A stretch of 12,898 nt of DNA from Rhodospirillaceae bacterium (GTDB lineage: Bacteria > Pseudomonadota > Alphaproteobacteria > MPNO01 > UBA2964): NCBI GenBank assembly GCA_018660305.1, contig JABJKO010000088.1:1-12898 (forward strand), in the 5' to 3' direction. A model generated the notes under the pieces. The model worked only from the letters and a program-made list of their open reading frames with translations. It was not told the DNA's origin and made no database searches. Position numbers and translations under genes: made by a program. Of the stretch, positions 4,640-12,628 are shown piece by piece (the first letter of the stretch is position 1; every line of letters starts with the position of its first letter).

Positions 4640-6490
4640 TTGGGCTTTTATGTCATCCAGTTTCTGACCGGTCTGGCCAGCGCATCATCGCTGTTCCTCA
4701 TCGCCGCCGGTCTGTCCATCATCTTCGGCGTAACCCGCATCCTCAATTTTGCCCACGGGTCGCTCTATATGCTGGGCGCCTACATCGGCTATACGCTCAT
4801 AACGCACCTTTCCCCCGGCCCCATCGGGTTCTGGCTCGCCGTGCTCGCGGCGGCCACTGTCGTGGGGCTGGTGGGGGTCGCCATCGAACTTGGCCTGCTG
4901 CGCCGCATCTATCAGGCGCCCGAGCTGTTCCAGTTGATCGCGACCTTCGGGGTCATTCTGATCGTCTCGGACATTACCCGCTTTATCTGGGGCGAGGAGG
5001 ATCTGGTGGGCCCGAGGGCGCCGGGTCTTTCTGAAGCCGTCGAAATATTCGGCCACCCCCTGCCCCAGTACGATCTCGCGCTGATTGTCCTGGGCCCGCT
5101 GGTGCTCGGCGTCACCTGGCTGCTGTTTCACCGCACCCGCTGGGGCACGCTGGTGCGGGCCGCCACCCAGGATCGGGAGATGGTCGGCGCGCTCGGCGCC
5201 AATCAGGCGCTTCTCTTCACATCGGTGTTTTTCTTCGGCGCGTTTCTCGCCGGACTTGGCGGTGCGGCACAGATTCCCAAGGGCGGCGCCGATCTCCTGA
5301 TGGACCTCAATGTCATCGCCGAGGCCTTTGTCATCGTGGTCATCGGCGGTATGGGCAGTATCCTCGGCGCCTTTCTGGCCGCCGTCATTATCGGCGAGTT
5401 GAACGCGTTCGGGATCCTGATCTTCCCGCAGATGACACTGGTACTGATGTTCGCCGTCATGGCCATTGTCCTGCTGATCCGGCCGTGGGGTCTGCTGGGA
5501 CGGCCGGAAGCGGTTTCCCGGGCTCCTGGCGAAGCCCCCGAGCCGCCGCTCCGACAGGCGACCAAGGCAGCGAAATCCCTGTTTATGGTGAGCCTGCTGT
5601 TCCTGTTCGTGGTGCCGATCCTTGGCAGCGACTTCGCCATGGTGATGTTGATCGACATCTTTATTTTCGTTCTCTTTGCCGTCAGCCTGCACTTCATCAT
5701 GGGGCCGGGCGGGTTGGTGTCCTTTGGCCATGCCGCCTATTACGGGCTCGGCGCCTACGCCTCGGCCCTGCTGGTGCATTATCTTGAGACCCCCATGGCC
5801 GCCGCCATGGTCGCGGCCCCCATCGTCGCGGGACTGGGCGCCATGGTGTTCGGCTGGTTCAGCGTCAGGTTGACCGGCGTCTATTTCGCCATGCTCACCC
5901 TCGCCTTTGCGCAGATCGGATGGTCCGTGGTCTTCCAGTGGAACGAATTCACCTATGGCGATGACGGCATCCTCAATATCTGGCCGTCCGACTGGCTGTC
6001 CAATCCGCTGATCTATTACTATTTCACGCTGTTCCTCGTGGGGGTCAGTATCGTCGTATTGAGGCGCACCCTGTTCACGCCCTTTGGCTACATGATGCGG
6101 GCGGGGCGCGACTCTCCCCTGCGGGCCGATGCCATCGGGATCGACGTGCAGCGCCAGCAATGGTTTGCGTTTATTTTCGCCGGCATGTTCGCCGGTCTTG
6201 CCGGCTCGCTCTATGTCTTTTCCAAAGGCAGCGTGTTTCCCGATCAAATGGCCATCCCGCAATCCATCGACGGGTTGATGATGGTCCTGCTGGGCGGCGT
6301 GAAGACCCTGACCGGCCCCATCGTCGGCGCCGCCGCCCTGACCGGCCTCACCGACTGGTTGTCCTCCAACGAGATCTGGTTCTGGCGCTCCGTCCTCGGC
6401 TGCGTGATCCTCGGGCTCGTCATCCTGTTTCCGCAGGGTATTGTCGGCTTCGTCCGCGATAAATTTGAACCGGCGGAGACCAGAGAATGA
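4640..6490 (+). CDS. Fused LivH-LivM permease of HAAT ABC importer
   Basis: Inner-membrane channel protein of 616 residues in which both permease subunits of the importer are joined. Residues 1 to about 289 are LivH-like (NFAHGSLYMLGAY near 36-48, VIAEAFVIVVIGGMGSILGA near 225-244). Residues about 290-313 form a hydrophilic, proline-rich linker. Residues about 314-616 are LivM-like (GPGGLVSFGHAAYYGLGAY near 355-373, AIGIDVQRQQWFAF, and GGVKTLTGPIVGA). The only possible start is TTG at 4640: an in-frame stop at 4601-4603 precedes it and no ATG or GTG lies between. The Shine-Dalgarno is poor. TTG plus the upstream hairpin suggests deliberately lower expression than the binding protein. Its stop overlaps the ATPase start (ATGA, 6487-6490), so these two are translationally coupled. 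Confidence 0.92.
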   Translation: MGFYVIQFLTGLASASSLFLIAAGLSIIFGVTRILNFAHGSLYMLGAYIGYTLITHLSPGPIGFWLAVLAAATVVGLVGVAIELGLLRRIYQAPELFQLIATFGVILIVSDITRFIWGEEDLVGPRAPGLSEAVEIFGHPLPQYDLALIVLGPLVLGVTWLLFHRTRWGTLVRAATQDREMVGALGANQALLFTSVFFFGAFLAGLGGAAQIPKGGADLLMDLNVIAEAFVIVVIGGMGSILGAFLAAVIIGELNAFGILIFPQMTLVLMFAVMAIVLLIRPWGLLGRPEAVSRAPGEAPEPPLRQATKAAKSLFMVSLLFLFVVPILGSDFAMVMLIDIFIFVLFAVSLHFIMGPGGLVSFGHAAYYGLGAYASALLVHYLETPMAAAMVAAPIVAGLGAMVFGWFSVRLTGVYFAMLTLAFAQIGWSVVFQWNEFTYGDDGILNIWPSDWLSNPLIYYYFTLFLVGVSIVVLRRTLFTPFGYMMRAGRDSPLRADAIGIDVQRQQWFAFIFAGMFAGLAGSLYVFSKGSVFPDQMAIPQSIDGLMMVLLGGVKTLTGPIVGAAALTGLTDWLSSNEIWFWRSVLGCVILGLVILFPQGIVGFVRDKFEPAETRE

Positions 6491-7704: not shown

Positions 7705-9510
7705 TCAGTGAGATTGATCGAGTATGGTTTTTCCCGATGGTATACGAACCTCGTCGACCATCGCCTGTGTTTCCGCATCCGGTTCCGCCGTCATCAAGCT
7801 GACGATAACCATGGACACCAGACTGAACGCCATACCCAGGATACCAAACCGTAAATGATCCAGCTCAAGGATCGGCGTACCGCCGGTCCGGAGATAGTAC
7901 AAATACAGAGTACCCGACAGGAAGCCGATGATCATGCCGGCGAGAGCCCCTTGTCGGTTTGCTCTCTTCCACCAGACACCGAGGACCAGGGGAAAGAACA
8001 AGCCGGAGGCAGCGAAACAGAACGCCCACGCGACCGCCCCCAATATGCCGGTGAGTTGCAACGTCGCCACCATGGCGGCCAGCACCCCGATCACAATGAG
8101 CAACACACGGGCGACGATAAGCCGTAGCCGTGTATCCGCCTTGGGATCGATGATCTTGTAGTAAAGATCGTGGCTGAGCGCGTTGGCGATGGCCAGAAGA
8201 AGACCATCCGCCGTCGACATGGCTGCCGCCAAACCGCCGGCTGCGACGAGTCCGGAAATCACGTAGGGAATCCCGGCGATCTCCGGTGTGGCAAGAACGA
8301 CAATATCCGGCCTCATGAAGAACTCATTCAGCTGAAGAATGCCATCGCCATTGCCATCGACGATCCTGAGCATGCCCACGTTGGACCAGTTCTTGATCCA
8401 TTCCAGACTGCCCACATCGGCGATTGATTTACCGATGATACTGGTCACCAGATTGGGATCGAGAAGCTGGAGCTTGGTGAGGGTCGCCAGTGCCGGTGCC
8501 GTGAAATACAGCAGGAAGATAAACAGCAGCGAATAGGCCACGGACTTACGGGCCTGTCTCACCGACGGCGTGGTGAAATACCGCATCAGAATATGCGGCA
8601 ACGACGCCGTCCCCGCCATCATGCTGAGCGCCAGCGTCACGAACTTCCAGCTGTCCAAACCGCCGGTCGGGCCGTTATGGGGCGTCGTCAGGACTTTAAG
8701 CCCGGGAATGCCTTCCAGGGCTGCCTTACCGAGCCCGATCATGGGCTCAAGTTCCTGAATACGCTGGACCGCGTCTCCGTAGGAGAAATGCGGGATGAGT
8801 CCGAAGCCCTGCTTGTTGGACATCCAGATAACCGGCGTCAGATAGGCGATGATCAGCACGATATATTGCGCCACCTGGGTCCAGGTCACCGCCCGCATGC
8901 CGCCAAGCATGGAACAGATCAAAATACCCAGCAGCCCGAACCAGACGCCATAGGAAAACGGAATCTGGAGCGCGCGCGCCGCGATGGTCCCCGAAGCGTT
9001 GATCTGCGCCGTCACATATGTGAAGGACGCCACCACCAGGATAACCACCGCACAGAACCGGGCAAAATTGCCGCCATAGCGTGTTCCGATGAAATCCGGC
9101 ACCGTGTAACAGCCGAATTTCCGCAGGTACGGCGCCATCAGGGAATTGACCAGCACGTAGCCGCCGGTCCACCCGACGACAAACGCCAGATAGCCATAGC
9201 CGCCAAAATAAATGCCGCCGGCCAGGGCGACAAACGATGCGCCGGACATCCAGTCCGCCGCCGTCGCCATCCCGTTATAGACCGCCGGGACTTCCCGTCC
9301 GGCCACGTAATAGGCATCGACCTGCATGGTTCGCGACAGCCACCCGATGAGGGCGTAGATCACGATGGTAAAAGCGACAAAAAGAATACCGATGGTCGCG
9401 GCGCTGACACCAAAATATTCCAGCAACGCCATGAGCAGGATGAAACAGATAAAGCCGCCGGTATAGATACCGTAGACTTTGGTGAGATTATCGATAAAGC
9501 GTCCGTTCAT
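7705..9510 (-). CDS. Sodium:solute symporter large subunit (SLC5 type, VC_2705-like)
   Basis: Inner-membrane symporter of 601 residues, related to acetate permease ActP, which uses the sodium gradient to import a small solute, probably a monocarboxylate. About 13 hydrophobic segments are visible. Family marks are the helix-1 region YGIYTGGF, AGREVPAVYNGMATAADWMSGASF (from residue 70, described here in part), GCYTVPDFIGTRYGG, TQVAQYIVLI, and the conserved GLAAAMSTADGLLLAIANALSHDLYY near 425-451. A hydrophilic loop carries a canonical EF-hand-like sequence, DGNGDGILQLNE (385-396). The start has an excellent AGGAGG (9518-9523). It overlaps the stop of the preceding small-subunit gene by ATGA, showing coupled translation. 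The pairing with a DUF4212 protein places it in the two-component symporter group rather than single-gene ActP. Substrate not known. Confidence 0.92.
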   Translation of the reverse strand: MNGRFIDNLTKVYGIYTGGFICFILLMALLEYFGVSAATIGILFVAFTIVIYALIGWLSRTMQVDAYYVAGREVPAVYNGMATAADWMSGASFVALAGGIYFGGYGYLAFVVGWTGGYVLVNSLMAPYLRKFGCYTVPDFIGTRYGGNFARFCAVVILVVASFTYVTAQINASGTIAARALQIPFSYGVWFGLLGILICSMLGGMRAVTWTQVAQYIVLIIAYLTPVIWMSNKQGFGLIPHFSYGDAVQRIQELEPMIGLGKAALEGIPGLKVLTTPHNGPTGGLDSWKFVTLALSMMAGTASLPHILMRYFTTPSVRQARKSVAYSLLFIFLLYFTAPALATLTKLQLLDPNLVTSIIGKSIADVGSLEWIKNWSNVGMLRIVDGNGDGILQLNEFFMRPDIVVLATPEIAGIPYVISGLVAAGGLAAAMSTADGLLLAIANALSHDLYYKIIDPKADTRLRLIVARVLLIVIGVLAAMVATLQLTGILGAVAWAFCFAASGLFFPLVLGVWWKRANRQGALAGMIIGFLSGTLYLYYLRTGGTPILELDHLRFGILGMAFSLVSMVIVSLMTAEPDAETQAMVDEVRIPSGKTILDQSH

Positions 9511-9937: not shown

Positions 9938-10594
9938 ATGGTGCAGGAAAAGCTCGCGGATTTACGAAACCTCTGGCGGGAGATTTCCAGCCGGATCACC
10001 CTGCGGCGCGATTCCGCCCCCATCGATTCCGTCGCCCGTCTCAACGATTTCGTGTCGACCCGGTCGGCCTTCATCGCCCAGAAAACCCTCTACGGTTATC
10101 TCAAGACCCGGATGGGAACCCGCTACCCGACCCTGTTCGAAGACGACATCTTTGTGCAGTCGATCAATATCGCGAAACTGCATGTGTTCGCGGCCTGTCT
10201 GTCCGACCTGACCATTCATGCCGTCGCGAACGCCACGCAGGGACAGGCCGTCACCGATGATGGACGCTGTGCCCTCGCCGGAGATTGCTACCGCGCCGCG
10301 CTAACCGAAAACGCCACCGACGCACCCACCGAATTTTCCGCCCAGGGCTCCCTTGATGATTTTCTGGCCCGGCTCCGGGAGACGGATTGGTCGGAGGGTG
10401 CCTTGCACAGGGAAAACTTTACGTGCAGCCCCGATGCCCTGGTCCATTGGGCGCCCATCGCCCCCGAGTTGAAAAAATTCGACAGGGAGATTGTCGAAAA
10501 TTCCATCAAGTTCGCCTGGCAGGATATTCGCAGGCAATTTGATCGGCGGATGGATCGGGATGCGATCTCGGCCGACCTCCCCCCCTTGTCATAA
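9938..10594 (+). CDS. Conserved hypothetical protein, 218 aa
   Basis: Soluble, mostly helical protein without signal peptide or membrane segment. The ATG at 9938 follows an A-rich tract ending in AGG, a modest ribosome binding site. Distinctive stretches are VSTRSAFIAQKTLYGYLKTRMGTRYPTLFEDDIFVQSINIAK near residues 38-79 (named here as a region), where a basic helix is followed by aromatic and acidic residues, and the C-terminal ELKKFDREIVENSIKFAWQDIRRQFDRR region. The first looks strongly constrained and is probably the family core. I recognise the general look of a protein conserved in alphaproteobacteria but cannot attach a function. It is transcribed away from the symporter genes and ends at a strong hairpin. 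Confidence 0.75.
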   Translation: MVQEKLADLRNLWREISSRITLRRDSAPIDSVARLNDFVSTRSAFIAQKTLYGYLKTRMGTRYPTLFEDDIFVQSINIAKLHVFAACLSDLTIHAVANATQGQAVTDDGRCALAGDCYRAALTENATDAPTEFSAQGSLDDFLARLRETDWSEGALHRENFTCSPDALVHWAPIAPELKKFDREIVENSIKFAWQDIRRQFDRRMDRDAISADLPPLS

Positions 10595-10595
10595 G

Positions 10596-10627
10596 AAAAC
10601 GGCGGCTCCAATACGCAGAGCCGCCGT
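10596..10627. terminator. Bidirectional hairpin terminator
   Basis: ACGGCGGCTC (10599-10608) and GAGCCGCCGT (10618-10627) form a perfect ten-base stem with a nine-base loop. On the minus strand it is followed by TTTCTTAT, a good terminator tail for the PEP-CTERM transcript. On the plus strand it is followed by CTGTCT, a weaker tail that may still end the 218-residue gene, whose stop lies four bases upstream. Confidence 0.75.
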
Positions 10628-10664
10628 CTGTCTCAAGACTGTCCGGAAGGAAGATGGACAATCG

Positions 10665-10704
10665 CGGAACAACACCAAGATCGATAAAGGTGTTGTCCGG
10701 TTTT
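10665..10704. terminator. Second hairpin between convergent genes
   Basis: ACAACACC (10669-10676) pairs with GGTGTTGT (10689-10696), extended by CGG/CCG across one bulged A, around a twelve-base loop. It is followed on the plus strand by GGTTTTAC, a short T-run. On the minus strand it starts 11 bases after the PEP-CTERM stop codon, with a pyrimidine-rich tract after it. It may end plus-strand read-through or stabilise the 3' end of the PEP-CTERM message. Confidence 0.5.
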
Positions 10705-10709
10705 ACACG

Positions 10710-11618
10710 TTACGCAACTTTACGACGCCGGGCGAAACCGATACCCGCGAGACCGAGGCCAAACAGGGCCAGCGTGCCCGGCTCGGCTACTACCCCTGTG
10801 GGGGGCGGATCAGGAGTAATGACCGTCCCCACACCGCCACCAATGATGACGTCGCGAGTCAGACCGCCCTGGGGCGCCTGTCCGAGCGGGATCAGGCTTC
10901 CAAGATTGCCGCGGAAATCCACATGCCAGGGATCCGCGCCCGCCAGATCGGCATCTGTCAGACCCGGAAAGGCGCCGGCACCCGCGCCAGTCAACAAAAC
11001 GTTTGTGCTAATTCCGCCGCCACCATGGGTGGTAAAGGTGATGCCGGGGATGAGCGTCGACAGCCAGTCAAAGGCGCCGGTGCCGATTTCACCCATGGCG
11101 AACAGGGCGCCACCGGTTAGACCGCCGTTAAAGCTTTGAATCAATGCAGCGTTGGCGTTAACGATCGCCAGTTCGGCAGAAGACATGTCGCCACCGCTTG
11201 CGAGTCCGACGGTTGGCAACAACAAAATGCCGGTATTTGCCGTTGACAATGTCATACCTGTCAAAGCGGACATGGTGGAGTCATAGGCGATGGTCCAGCC
11301 CATGCCGGGCAGGCTCGAATGCTGAAAGGCACACTGATAGGAAGACCCATTGGCGCTGGTCGCGCCGCCACAGGAACCGGGGGACGACAGGCCCATAACC
11401 CGGACTACCTTGGCAGCGGAACCGCTGACCGTCGTGCCCAAATTCTCCAGGGCACGCTGCATATATTCCCAGCCGGTGACATTGGCGACACCGCTGTATG
11501 ATCCGTGATCATTGGCATCGGTGCCATCGATGATGACTGGTCCGGCCGATGCCGGGCTGATTGCGAGAGCGGCCGCGGTTGCCAAAGCGGCCGCAGCGAG
11601 GGGGGCTTTGAGTTTCAT
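10710..11618 (-). CDS. PEP-CTERM sorting domain protein, secreted
   Basis: Exported protein of 302 residues. The N-terminus is a Sec signal peptide (MKLKAPLAAAALATAAALA, cleavage probably after SPASA at residue 25). The C-terminus is a PEP-CTERM sorting signal: EPGTLALFGLGLAGIGF from Glu279, then ARRRKVA, that is, the motif, a hydrophobic helix and a basic tail, recognised and cut by an exosortase at the inner membrane during export. Between them lies a glycine-rich alpha/beta-looking domain with IIDGTDANDHGSYSG (29-43), WEYMQRALENLG, KVVRVMGLSSPG, ILLLPTVGLASGGDM, NGGLTGGALFAMGEIG and WHVDFRGNLGSL. I do not recognise this domain. The ATG at 11618 has GGAG at ideal spacing; the ATG at 11630 does not. 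No exosortase is encoded in the window. Expression is probably RpoN-dependent (see the site at 11701-11716). Confidence 0.88.
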   Translation of the reverse strand: MKLKAPLAAAALATAAALAISPASAGPVIIDGTDANDHGSYSGVANVTGWEYMQRALENLGTTVSGSAAKVVRVMGLSSPGSCGGATSANGSSYQCAFQHSSLPGMGWTIAYDSTMSALTGMTLSTANTGILLLPTVGLASGGDMSSAELAIVNANAALIQSFNGGLTGGALFAMGEIGTGAFDWLSTLIPGITFTTHGGGGISTNVLLTGAGAGAFPGLTDADLAGADPWHVDFRGNLGSLIPLGQAPQGGLTRDVIIGGGVGTVITPDPPPTGVVAEPGTLALFGLGLAGIGFARRRKVA

Positions 11619-11700
11619 AATTAACTCCATTATTAACAGCTGCAGAAAGGGGCTATCTGCTAGCCGCGTGTTGTACCCACCTCAATAACGATTCCTCACA

Positions 11701-11716
11701 TGCAAGAATCGTGCCA
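11701..11716 (-). promoter_or_regulatory. Sigma-54 (RpoN) -24/-12 promoter of the PEP-CTERM gene
   Basis: On the minus strand the sequence is TGGCACGATTCTTGCA. It matches the RpoN consensus TGGCACG-N4-TTGCA at every defined position and has the required GG-N10-GC spacing. The predicted transcript start is near 11690, giving a leader of about 72 bases before the ATG at 11618. A 7-bp inverted repeat (ACGATTC/GAATCGT, 11688-11712) overlaps the -12 box and start point and may be an extra control site. Confidence 0.8.
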
Positions 11717-11720
11717 AACG

Positions 11721-11734
11721 TTAACAATTGTTAA
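11721..11734. promoter_or_regulatory. Perfect 14-bp palindrome TTAACAATTGTTAA
   Basis: A perfect dyad, centred about 38 bases upstream of the predicted sigma-54 start and ending five bases from the -24 box. It is too close for a typical enhancer but suits a repressor or a second activator contact. Its A/T richness lowers the weight of the symmetry. Confidence 0.4.
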
Positions 11735-11735
11735 T

Positions 11736-11748
11736 TTTCAATAATTTA
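11736..11748 (+). promoter_or_regulatory. IHF-like site
   Basis: TTTCAATAATTTA matches the integration host factor consensus WATCAA-N4-TTR with one mismatch, inside an A/T-rich tract. It lies about 46 to 58 bases upstream of the predicted sigma-54 start, between the promoter and the distal palindrome. IHF commonly bends DNA at this position to bring an enhancer-bound activator to RpoN polymerase. Because A/T-rich DNA gives chance matches, this is moderate evidence only. Confidence 0.4.
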
Positions 11749-11808
11749 ACGAACGCGTCGACGGTCCAAATTCGAAAACTGTAAAGAATTCCGACACTTA
11801 ATTCTTAT

Positions 11809-11820
11809 TAACTTAAGTTA
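11809..11820. promoter_or_regulatory. Perfect 12-bp palindrome TAACTTAAGTTA, candidate upstream activator site
   Basis: A perfect dyad centred about 125 bases upstream of the predicted sigma-54 start, the usual distance for an enhancer-binding activator of RpoN promoters. It also lies just past the 3' end of the isomerase gene. The binding protein is not encoded in the window. Confidence 0.4.
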
Positions 11821-11830
11821 CCCGAGATGG

Positions 11831-12628
11831 TTAACAATCTCTTTCGGAACTGATCCCGTAAGGTTCGGCCCAGGACAGGCCGTCCCAGCTATCGCCTTTC
11901 GGCGTGTATTCGCATCCCACCCAGCCGTCATAACCGATGGTGTCGAGATACTCGAACAGATAGGGGAAATTGAGTTCGCCATGCTGCGGTTCATGACGCC
12001 CCGGCACGCTGGAAATCTGGACATGGCTGATGATGTCGAGATCACGCGCGAGATTTTCCACATGATCGCCCTGCATGATCTGCATATGGAAAAAGTCATA
12101 TTGCAGCTTCACGTTCAGCGCGCCCACCGCCTCGATGATCCGCCGTGTATGGAGAGTGTCGGTGTGGAGATAGCCCGGCATGGTCCGGCTGTTGAGCGGC
12201 TCCAGCAGTAATGTGATCCCGGCATCGGCGGCGCGCGGCGCGGCCGCCAGCAAATTGGCGATAAAGGTATTTTCACACGCGTCGACCGTCAGCCCGTCGG
12301 GCACCCTTCCCGCCGTCACGTGAATGAAACAGCCGTCCAGCGCCGCACAGTAAGTCAGGGCCCGATCCATGATCTCGCGAAACTCAGCCTCCCGGCCGGG
12401 GATCACGCTGGCGCCGGGTTCCAAATCGTCGGATGTCCGTCCCAGGGTATTGAGCAGGAGAAACTGAAGCTGGTTTTCTTCCAGCCATCCCCGCACCCGA
12501 TCCACCGGAAATTCATAGGGCCGCAGGAATTCGATGGCCTTGAAACCGGCCCGTGCCGCAGCCCGGAATCGGTCGCCCGGCTCCAGTTCGGGAAACATGG
12601 TGGTGAGGTTGGCGGCGAATTTGGGCAT
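11831..12628 (-). CDS. Hydroxypyruvate isomerase (Hyi) family TIM-barrel protein
   Basis: Cytosolic TIM-barrel isomerase of 265 residues, close to the roughly 258 of Escherichia coli Hyi. It starts with the family-typical MPKFAANLTTMF. The predicted metal and catalytic residues are in place: Glu143 (LLLEPLN), Asp178 and His181 (YDFFHMQ), His202 and Gln204 (SHVQISSVPGRHEP) and Glu240 (WVGCEYTPKG). The known reaction is hydroxypyruvate to tartronate semialdehyde; the close relative OtnI acts on 2-oxo-tetronate, and paralogues serve other sugar-acid or catabolic pathways, so the substrate is not certain. The C-terminal tail (SSERDC) is slightly longer than usual. It follows a Rieske oxygenase gene by only 14 bases and lacks a clear Shine-Dalgarno, so it is probably translated by coupling within that operon. 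Confidence 0.88.
   Translation of the reverse strand: MPKFAANLTTMFPELEPGDRFRAAARAGFKAIEFLRPYEFPVDRVRGWLEENQLQFLLLNTLGRTSDDLEPGASVIPGREAEFREIMDRALTYCAALDGCFIHVTAGRVPDGLTVDACENTFIANLLAAAPRAADAGITLLLEPLNSRTMPGYLHTDTLHTRRIIEAVGALNVKLQYDFFHMQIMQGDHVENLARDLDIISHVQISSVPGRHEPQHGELNFPYLFEYLDTIGYDGWVGCEYTPKGDSWDGLSWAEPYGISSERDC

Follow-up and report, generated by a model that had tools for sequence, protein, structure and literature searches.

The intergenic DNA in front of a PEP-CTERM gene in the window (the whole stretch of 12,898 nt analyzed here) is very probably a sigma-54 promoter controlled by the PrsK/PrsR pair and bent by IHF, whose product would be sorted by an exosortase; we put the probability of this reading at roughly 0.9. 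A PrsR-type promoter is favored because a box, an IHF-like site and a sigma-54 site follow one another in the expected order and because the spacing between box and sigma-54 site is the published one. The activator likely docks at 11780–11796, judging from the sequence, on a box that an earlier note on this DNA overlooked and that lies closer to the gene than the palindrome singled out there. The promoter would belong to the known PrsR-type class, and the more interesting result is the helix-phased layout that its members seem to share.

The Intergenic Stretch and Its PEP-CTERM Gene

Read on the minus strand, 212 nt of intergenic DNA separate the end of the isomerase gene from ATG 11618, with a GC content of 39% vs. 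59% for the whole window. The elements are given below in their order towards the gene, followed by the gene and its 3′ flank.

11831–12628: isomerase gene, hydroxypyruvate/2-oxo-tetronate isomerase-like, below the curated cut-offs
11820–11809, strandless: perfect 12-nt palindrome TAACTTAAGTTA
11796–11780, minus strand: candidate PrsR box (Haft motif 1) TGTCGGAATTCTTTACA, 17 nt with a TTTACA end
11748–11736, minus strand: IHF-like site TAAATTATTGAAA, beginning 32 nt before the first base of TGGC
11734–11721, strandless: second palindrome TTAACAATTGTTAA, flanked by the IHF-like site and the −24 element
11716–11701, minus strand: sigma-54 −24/−12 element TGGCACGATTCTTGCA, with the GG/GC motif
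11628–11616, minus strand: Shine-Dalgarno GGAG, spacer and likely ATG start of the PEP-CTERM gene
11618–10710, minus strand: PEP-CTERM protein gene, 302 aa, with signal peptide, body and C-terminal sorting signal AEPGTLALFGLGLAGIGFARRRK
10627–10590, minus strand: GC-rich hairpin followed by TTTTCTT, 3′ of the PEP-CTERM gene

The signal peptide of the 302-aa protein was read from the sequence, and the tail exceeds the cut-offs of both PF07589 (27.3 bits, cut-off 20.7) and TIGR02595 (21.2 bits, cut-off 16), which makes this a genuine PEP-CTERM gene, as had been proposed from the letters. The start codon is likely the ATG at 11616–11618, which has GGAG ahead of it, rather than the ATG at 11630. 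Downstream of the gene, the hairpin and T run at 10590–10627, likewise read from the letters, probably constitute an intrinsic terminator. A pattern scan, which allows loops of 3–8 nt, reported no terminator, probably because the loop here is about 9 nt long.

The protein family is scattered, with members on contigs of Rhodoferax, Acidobacteria, Nitrospirales, Pseudomonadales and Betaproteobacteria; the few named relatives among the best 120 matches are from Burkholderiales. A model of the protein suggests a weak resemblance to the peptidase E and class I amidotransferase folds. Elsewhere in the window, a single ORF of 616 aa (4640–6490) fuses two branched-chain/urea-type ABC permeases, matching first UrtB and next UrtC, both below the curated cut-offs.

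The Sigma-54 Site and the Probable PrsR Box

The sigma-54 site that the earlier note placed at 11701–11716 on the minus strand is borne out. It is the sole mismatch-free match to TGGCACGNNNNTTGCW in the window, where three other matches carry two mismatches, and a perfect site arose in none of 20,000 dinucleotide shuffles of the 215-nt intergenic stretch. The predicted +1 falls at about 11690, the position given in that note, and the 81–82 nt from the site to ATG 11618 fit the published placement of the sigma-54 motif (motif 2) about 71 nt ahead of the start codon (SD 38.5; Haft et al., 2006; PMC1569441).

In the text of the same study, proteobacterial PEP-CTERM genes are preceded by a 17-nt motif with a TTTACA end (motif 1), predicted to be the PrsR site, and the spacer between motif 1 and the sigma-54 motif has a mean of 62.8 nt (SD 10.6, range 32–92; PMC1569441). 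The box at 11780–11796 agrees with motif 1, as matched to its published wording rather than its logo, and with this spacing: its TTTACA lies at 11785–11780, with a 63-nt spacer to the sigma-54 site, and its center at about −98. The pattern TGTCRN6TTTACA, derived here from PEP-CTERM genes of other genomes, occurs only once in the window, at the box, while bare TTTACA occurs three times; the identical 17-mer is found in two promoters of genome G510. The assignment of the gene to a PrsR regulon is therefore well supported, since the box fits motif 1 at the published spacing and the combination of elements tracks PrsR genes (see below), whereas the element that had been named as the activator site was probably the wrong one.

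Association With PrsR Across Genomes

The elements and their spacing are observed in the window, and their association with PrsR genes is observed across genomes. It was followed with a composite consisting of the box, 48–78 nt and then the sigma-54 site. The class sample comprised 385 genomes of the class of genome G284, presumably Alphaproteobacteria, of which 31 encode PrsR (TIGR02915 above cut-off, E 1e-150 or better); these were set against 31 of the remaining 354 genomes, chosen non-randomly by running number, several small genomes among them. The composite is present in 20 of the 31 PrsR-positive genomes vs. none of the 31 chosen PrsR-negative ones, with 66 matches in all and none for the reversed control. 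Exosortase follows a similar division (25/31 vs. 5/31), and rpoN is found in 31/31 vs. 25/31. Among the 66 class promoters, 61 have a complete downstream ORF of at least 60 aa, and PF07589 was matched at E 0.05 or better in 35 of these 61, the most PEP-CTERM-like ORF having been chosen for each.

A phylum sample of 398 genomes gave the composite in 40 genomes (80 matches, vs. a single one, in G268, for the reversed control) and PrsR in 45. The composite occurs in 35 of the 45 PrsR-positive and 5 of the 353 PrsR-negative genomes, ten genomes having PrsR only (Fisher p ~9e-36, uncorrected for kinship). The strict composite is thus absent from 10/45 PrsR-positive genomes of the phylum sample and from 11/31 of the class sample. 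The two samples overlap in three promoters, which were counted once, giving 143 related promoters. In five of these (L130, L134, L140, L142, and L143) the hexamer TTAACC, which we take to resemble the CtrA half-site TTAACCAT, stands 23–26 nt after the PrsR box, and visual inspection showed near-matches at a similar place in L056 and L057; it is possibly the mark of a lineage-specific third regulator.

The symporter encoded at 7705–9510 of the window is 94–95% identical to its closest matches and 83–87% identical to proteins of Rhodovibrionaceae, Kiloniellaceae, Pelagibius and Rhizobiaceae, among others, within the best 120 matches listed, which makes an alphaproteobacterium the likely source. 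Genome G589, whose symporter (83%) comes closest among the 31 PrsR-positive class genomes, encodes PrsR and an exosortase with about 0.9 kb between them, together with rpoN and three composites. We infer that PrsR, RpoN and an exosortase are present in the organism of the window. The inferred status of PrsR, and the large number of related kinds of sigma-54 activators, leave room for a different NtrC-like or FlbD-like activator driving the sigma-54 promoter, the TTTACA box then being a coincidence or a relic. Such an arrangement survives best among the alternatives and is still very unlikely, given that box and spacing fit a PrsR pattern that is nearly confined to PrsR-positive genomes.

The IHF-Like Site and Proposed Helical Phasing

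The IHF-like site lies between the box and the promoter, one mismatch from the E. coli-type consensus WATCAANNNNTTR. Alone it is a weak signal: the relaxed form arose somewhere in 155 of 5,000 shuffles of the stretch, and at up to two mismatches the whole window has 46 IHF matches where 54.9 are expected. The earlier claim of an IHF-like site at 11736–11748 is supported by its place, which is common to 43 of the 143 related promoters. Of the 66 class promoters, 26 carry the relaxed consensus YAANNNNYTGAWW at 30–33 nt ahead of TGGC, against an average of 0.12 and a maximum of 2 over 500 shuffle rounds; of the 77 further phylum promoters, 17 do so (average 0.15 and maximum 2 over 300 shuffle rounds). 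The other 100 of the 143 have no match to it at 30–33 nt. Elsewhere in the spacer, same-orientation matches number none in the class set and four in the phylum set. The consensus in the opposite orientation was seen 18–20 nt before TGGC with seven matches in the 77 phylum promoters and three in the 66 class promoters, these being raw counts.

Spacers in the 143 promoters measure 49–55, 59–66, 68, 72–76, and 78 nt, which places the box in three main groups relative to the promoter, near 52, 63, and 74 nt, at intervals of roughly one turn of the helix. Outside the range 58–68, 38 of 41 spacers fall at 50–54 or 72–76 nt, one turn off the main class (37 of 39 when the PrsR-negative genomes are left aside); the binomial value of 5e-9 for 38/41 is only a guide, because the ranges were delimited with the data in view and some genomes contribute several promoters. 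A wider search of the 31 PrsR-positive class genomes, with limits of 17–109 nt, gave long spacers of 83, 86, 86, 89, 103, and 105 nt, of which that of 89 re-reads a box already included, and short ones of 42, 43, and 43 nt. As the box moves, the IHF site usually holds its distance to the promoter: box-to-IHF distances are mostly 20–21 nt with short spacers, 29–33 nt with middle ones and 40–43 nt with long ones. There are four exceptions, one at 31 nt among the short spacers and three, at 8, 32, and 33 nt, among the long; in three of the four, the site holds its distance to the box rather than to the promoter.

The layout recurs in relatives of the PEP-CTERM protein. The Rhodoferax orthologue (L001, 55% identical) combines the box TGTCGGATTTTTTTACA with a 63-nt spacer and has CAACTCGTTGATT positioned 32 nt before its sigma-54 −24/−12 site CGGCATTATTTTTGC. 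The relative L006 has a spacer of 74 nt, while L007, with the variant box TGTCGCTTTCTTTTACG and TAAGTCCTTGATA located 31 nt before its sigma-54 site, has one of 71 nt and is off phase.

It thus seems reasonably probable that proteobacterial PrsR promoters share a looping design, in which the IHF site usually stands 30–33 nt before the −24 element and the box shifts by whole turns, which would keep activator and polymerase on one face of the bent DNA. The design would cover the three main spacer groups (near 52, 63, and 74 nt) as well as the few spacers of 42–43, 83–89, and 103–105 nt, and the window promoter would be a standard 63-nt member. Our confidence is reduced by three IHF sites that track the box and not the promoter and by L007, which is off phase. 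The PEP-motif gene GSU1943 is up about 3-fold in two Geobacter ihf mutants (PMC7962754); a simple activating role of IHF is poorly fitted by a gene that rises rather than falls. No description of an IHF site or of helical phasing in PEP-CTERM promoters was found in the accessible parts of the open-access literature searched, and the text of Haft et al. (PMC1569441) does not contain “IHF,” “integration host,” “loop” or “phase,” with “helical” in a reference title only.

The Palindromes

The perfect 12-nt palindrome at 11809–11820 exists as the earlier note stated, in a single copy in the window at up to two mismatches. Its position is a possible one for an enhancer, and an activator could bind there in front of a real sigma-54 promoter. 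The second palindrome, absent from that note, adds some weight, since two or more 12-nt palindromes arose in only 11 of 5,000 shuffles of the stretch, which makes the pair mildly unusual; at least one, however, arose in 362 of 5,000. Furthermore, none of the 66 related class promoters has a copy of TAACTTAAGTTA, at up to two mismatches, in the 150 nt ahead of its box, and in the Rhodoferax orthologue (L001) neither such a copy nor any perfect 12-nt palindrome was found from 200 nt upstream of the box to the start. A different sequence, the box, fits the PrsR motif as worded in PMC1569441. Docking of the activator on the palindrome is very unlikely, slightly more so than a change of activator; the palindrome, contrary to what had been proposed, probably does not serve as the PrsR box and may have arisen by chance. 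Both AT-rich palindromes are perfect and share the form TAAC...GTTA within one 212-nt stretch.

That the whole arrangement is a chance likeness, with a sigma-70-type promoter reading the gene, is barely credible: AT-rich motifs do arise easily in a stretch of 39% GC within a 59% GC window, but the composite arose in 0/20,000 shuffles of that stretch, a scan of 10500–11900 found no sigma-70-like promoter (0.7 expected), and the layout is conserved in the distant orthologue from Rhodoferax.

Proposed Mechanism and Relation to Known Systems

For control by PrsK/PrsR, phosphorylated PrsR, an NtrC-like activator, would bind the box at 11780–11796. IHF would bend the DNA at 11736–11748, and the bend would bring PrsR into contact with RNA polymerase-sigma-54 on 11701–11716, so that the promoter would open at about 11690. 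The PEP-CTERM product would then be exported via its signal peptide and sorted by an exosortase through its PEP-CTERM tail.

The Caulobacter flagellar promoters with FlbD are IHF-assisted sigma-54 promoters. The window promoter has the same order of activator site, IHF bend and −24/−12 site as promoters of this general kind, as they are outlined in PMC7962754, and differs from them in that its activator box is of the PrsR kind. The PrsK/PrsR promoters of PEP-CTERM genes (PMC1569441) are alike in the 17-nt TTTACA box, the spacer of about 63 nt, the sigma-54 site and the stretch of more than 200 nt before the gene; no difference in sequence was found in a comparison with the published wording rather than the logo, while the IHF-like site and the helical-turn spacing seen here go unmentioned in that text. 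In Aquincola tertiaricarbonis RN12, pepA requires RpoN1 and starts at a −24/−12 promoter mapped by primer extension (PMC9850573). This is likewise the promoter of a PEP-CTERM gene, with TGGCAC / CTGCTT, RpoN1 dependence in that strain and a predicted upstream enhancer, but it has been tested at the bench, whereas the window promoter is known from its sequence, and the two are likened here from the published description.

The window promoter probably switches on the gene of a secreted surface protein; an exosortase-linked surface protein of Aquincola tertiaricarbonis is involved in floc formation (PMC9850573). For this stretch, the result probably sorts out which of the elements named earlier matter and relocates the activator site. 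If the phasing is true, half-turn insertions between box and promoter would abolish expression and full-turn ones would be tolerated. The wider pattern of box, turn-locked spacer, IHF site and sigma-54 site would give a sharper rule with which to search for exosortase-linked surface proteins.
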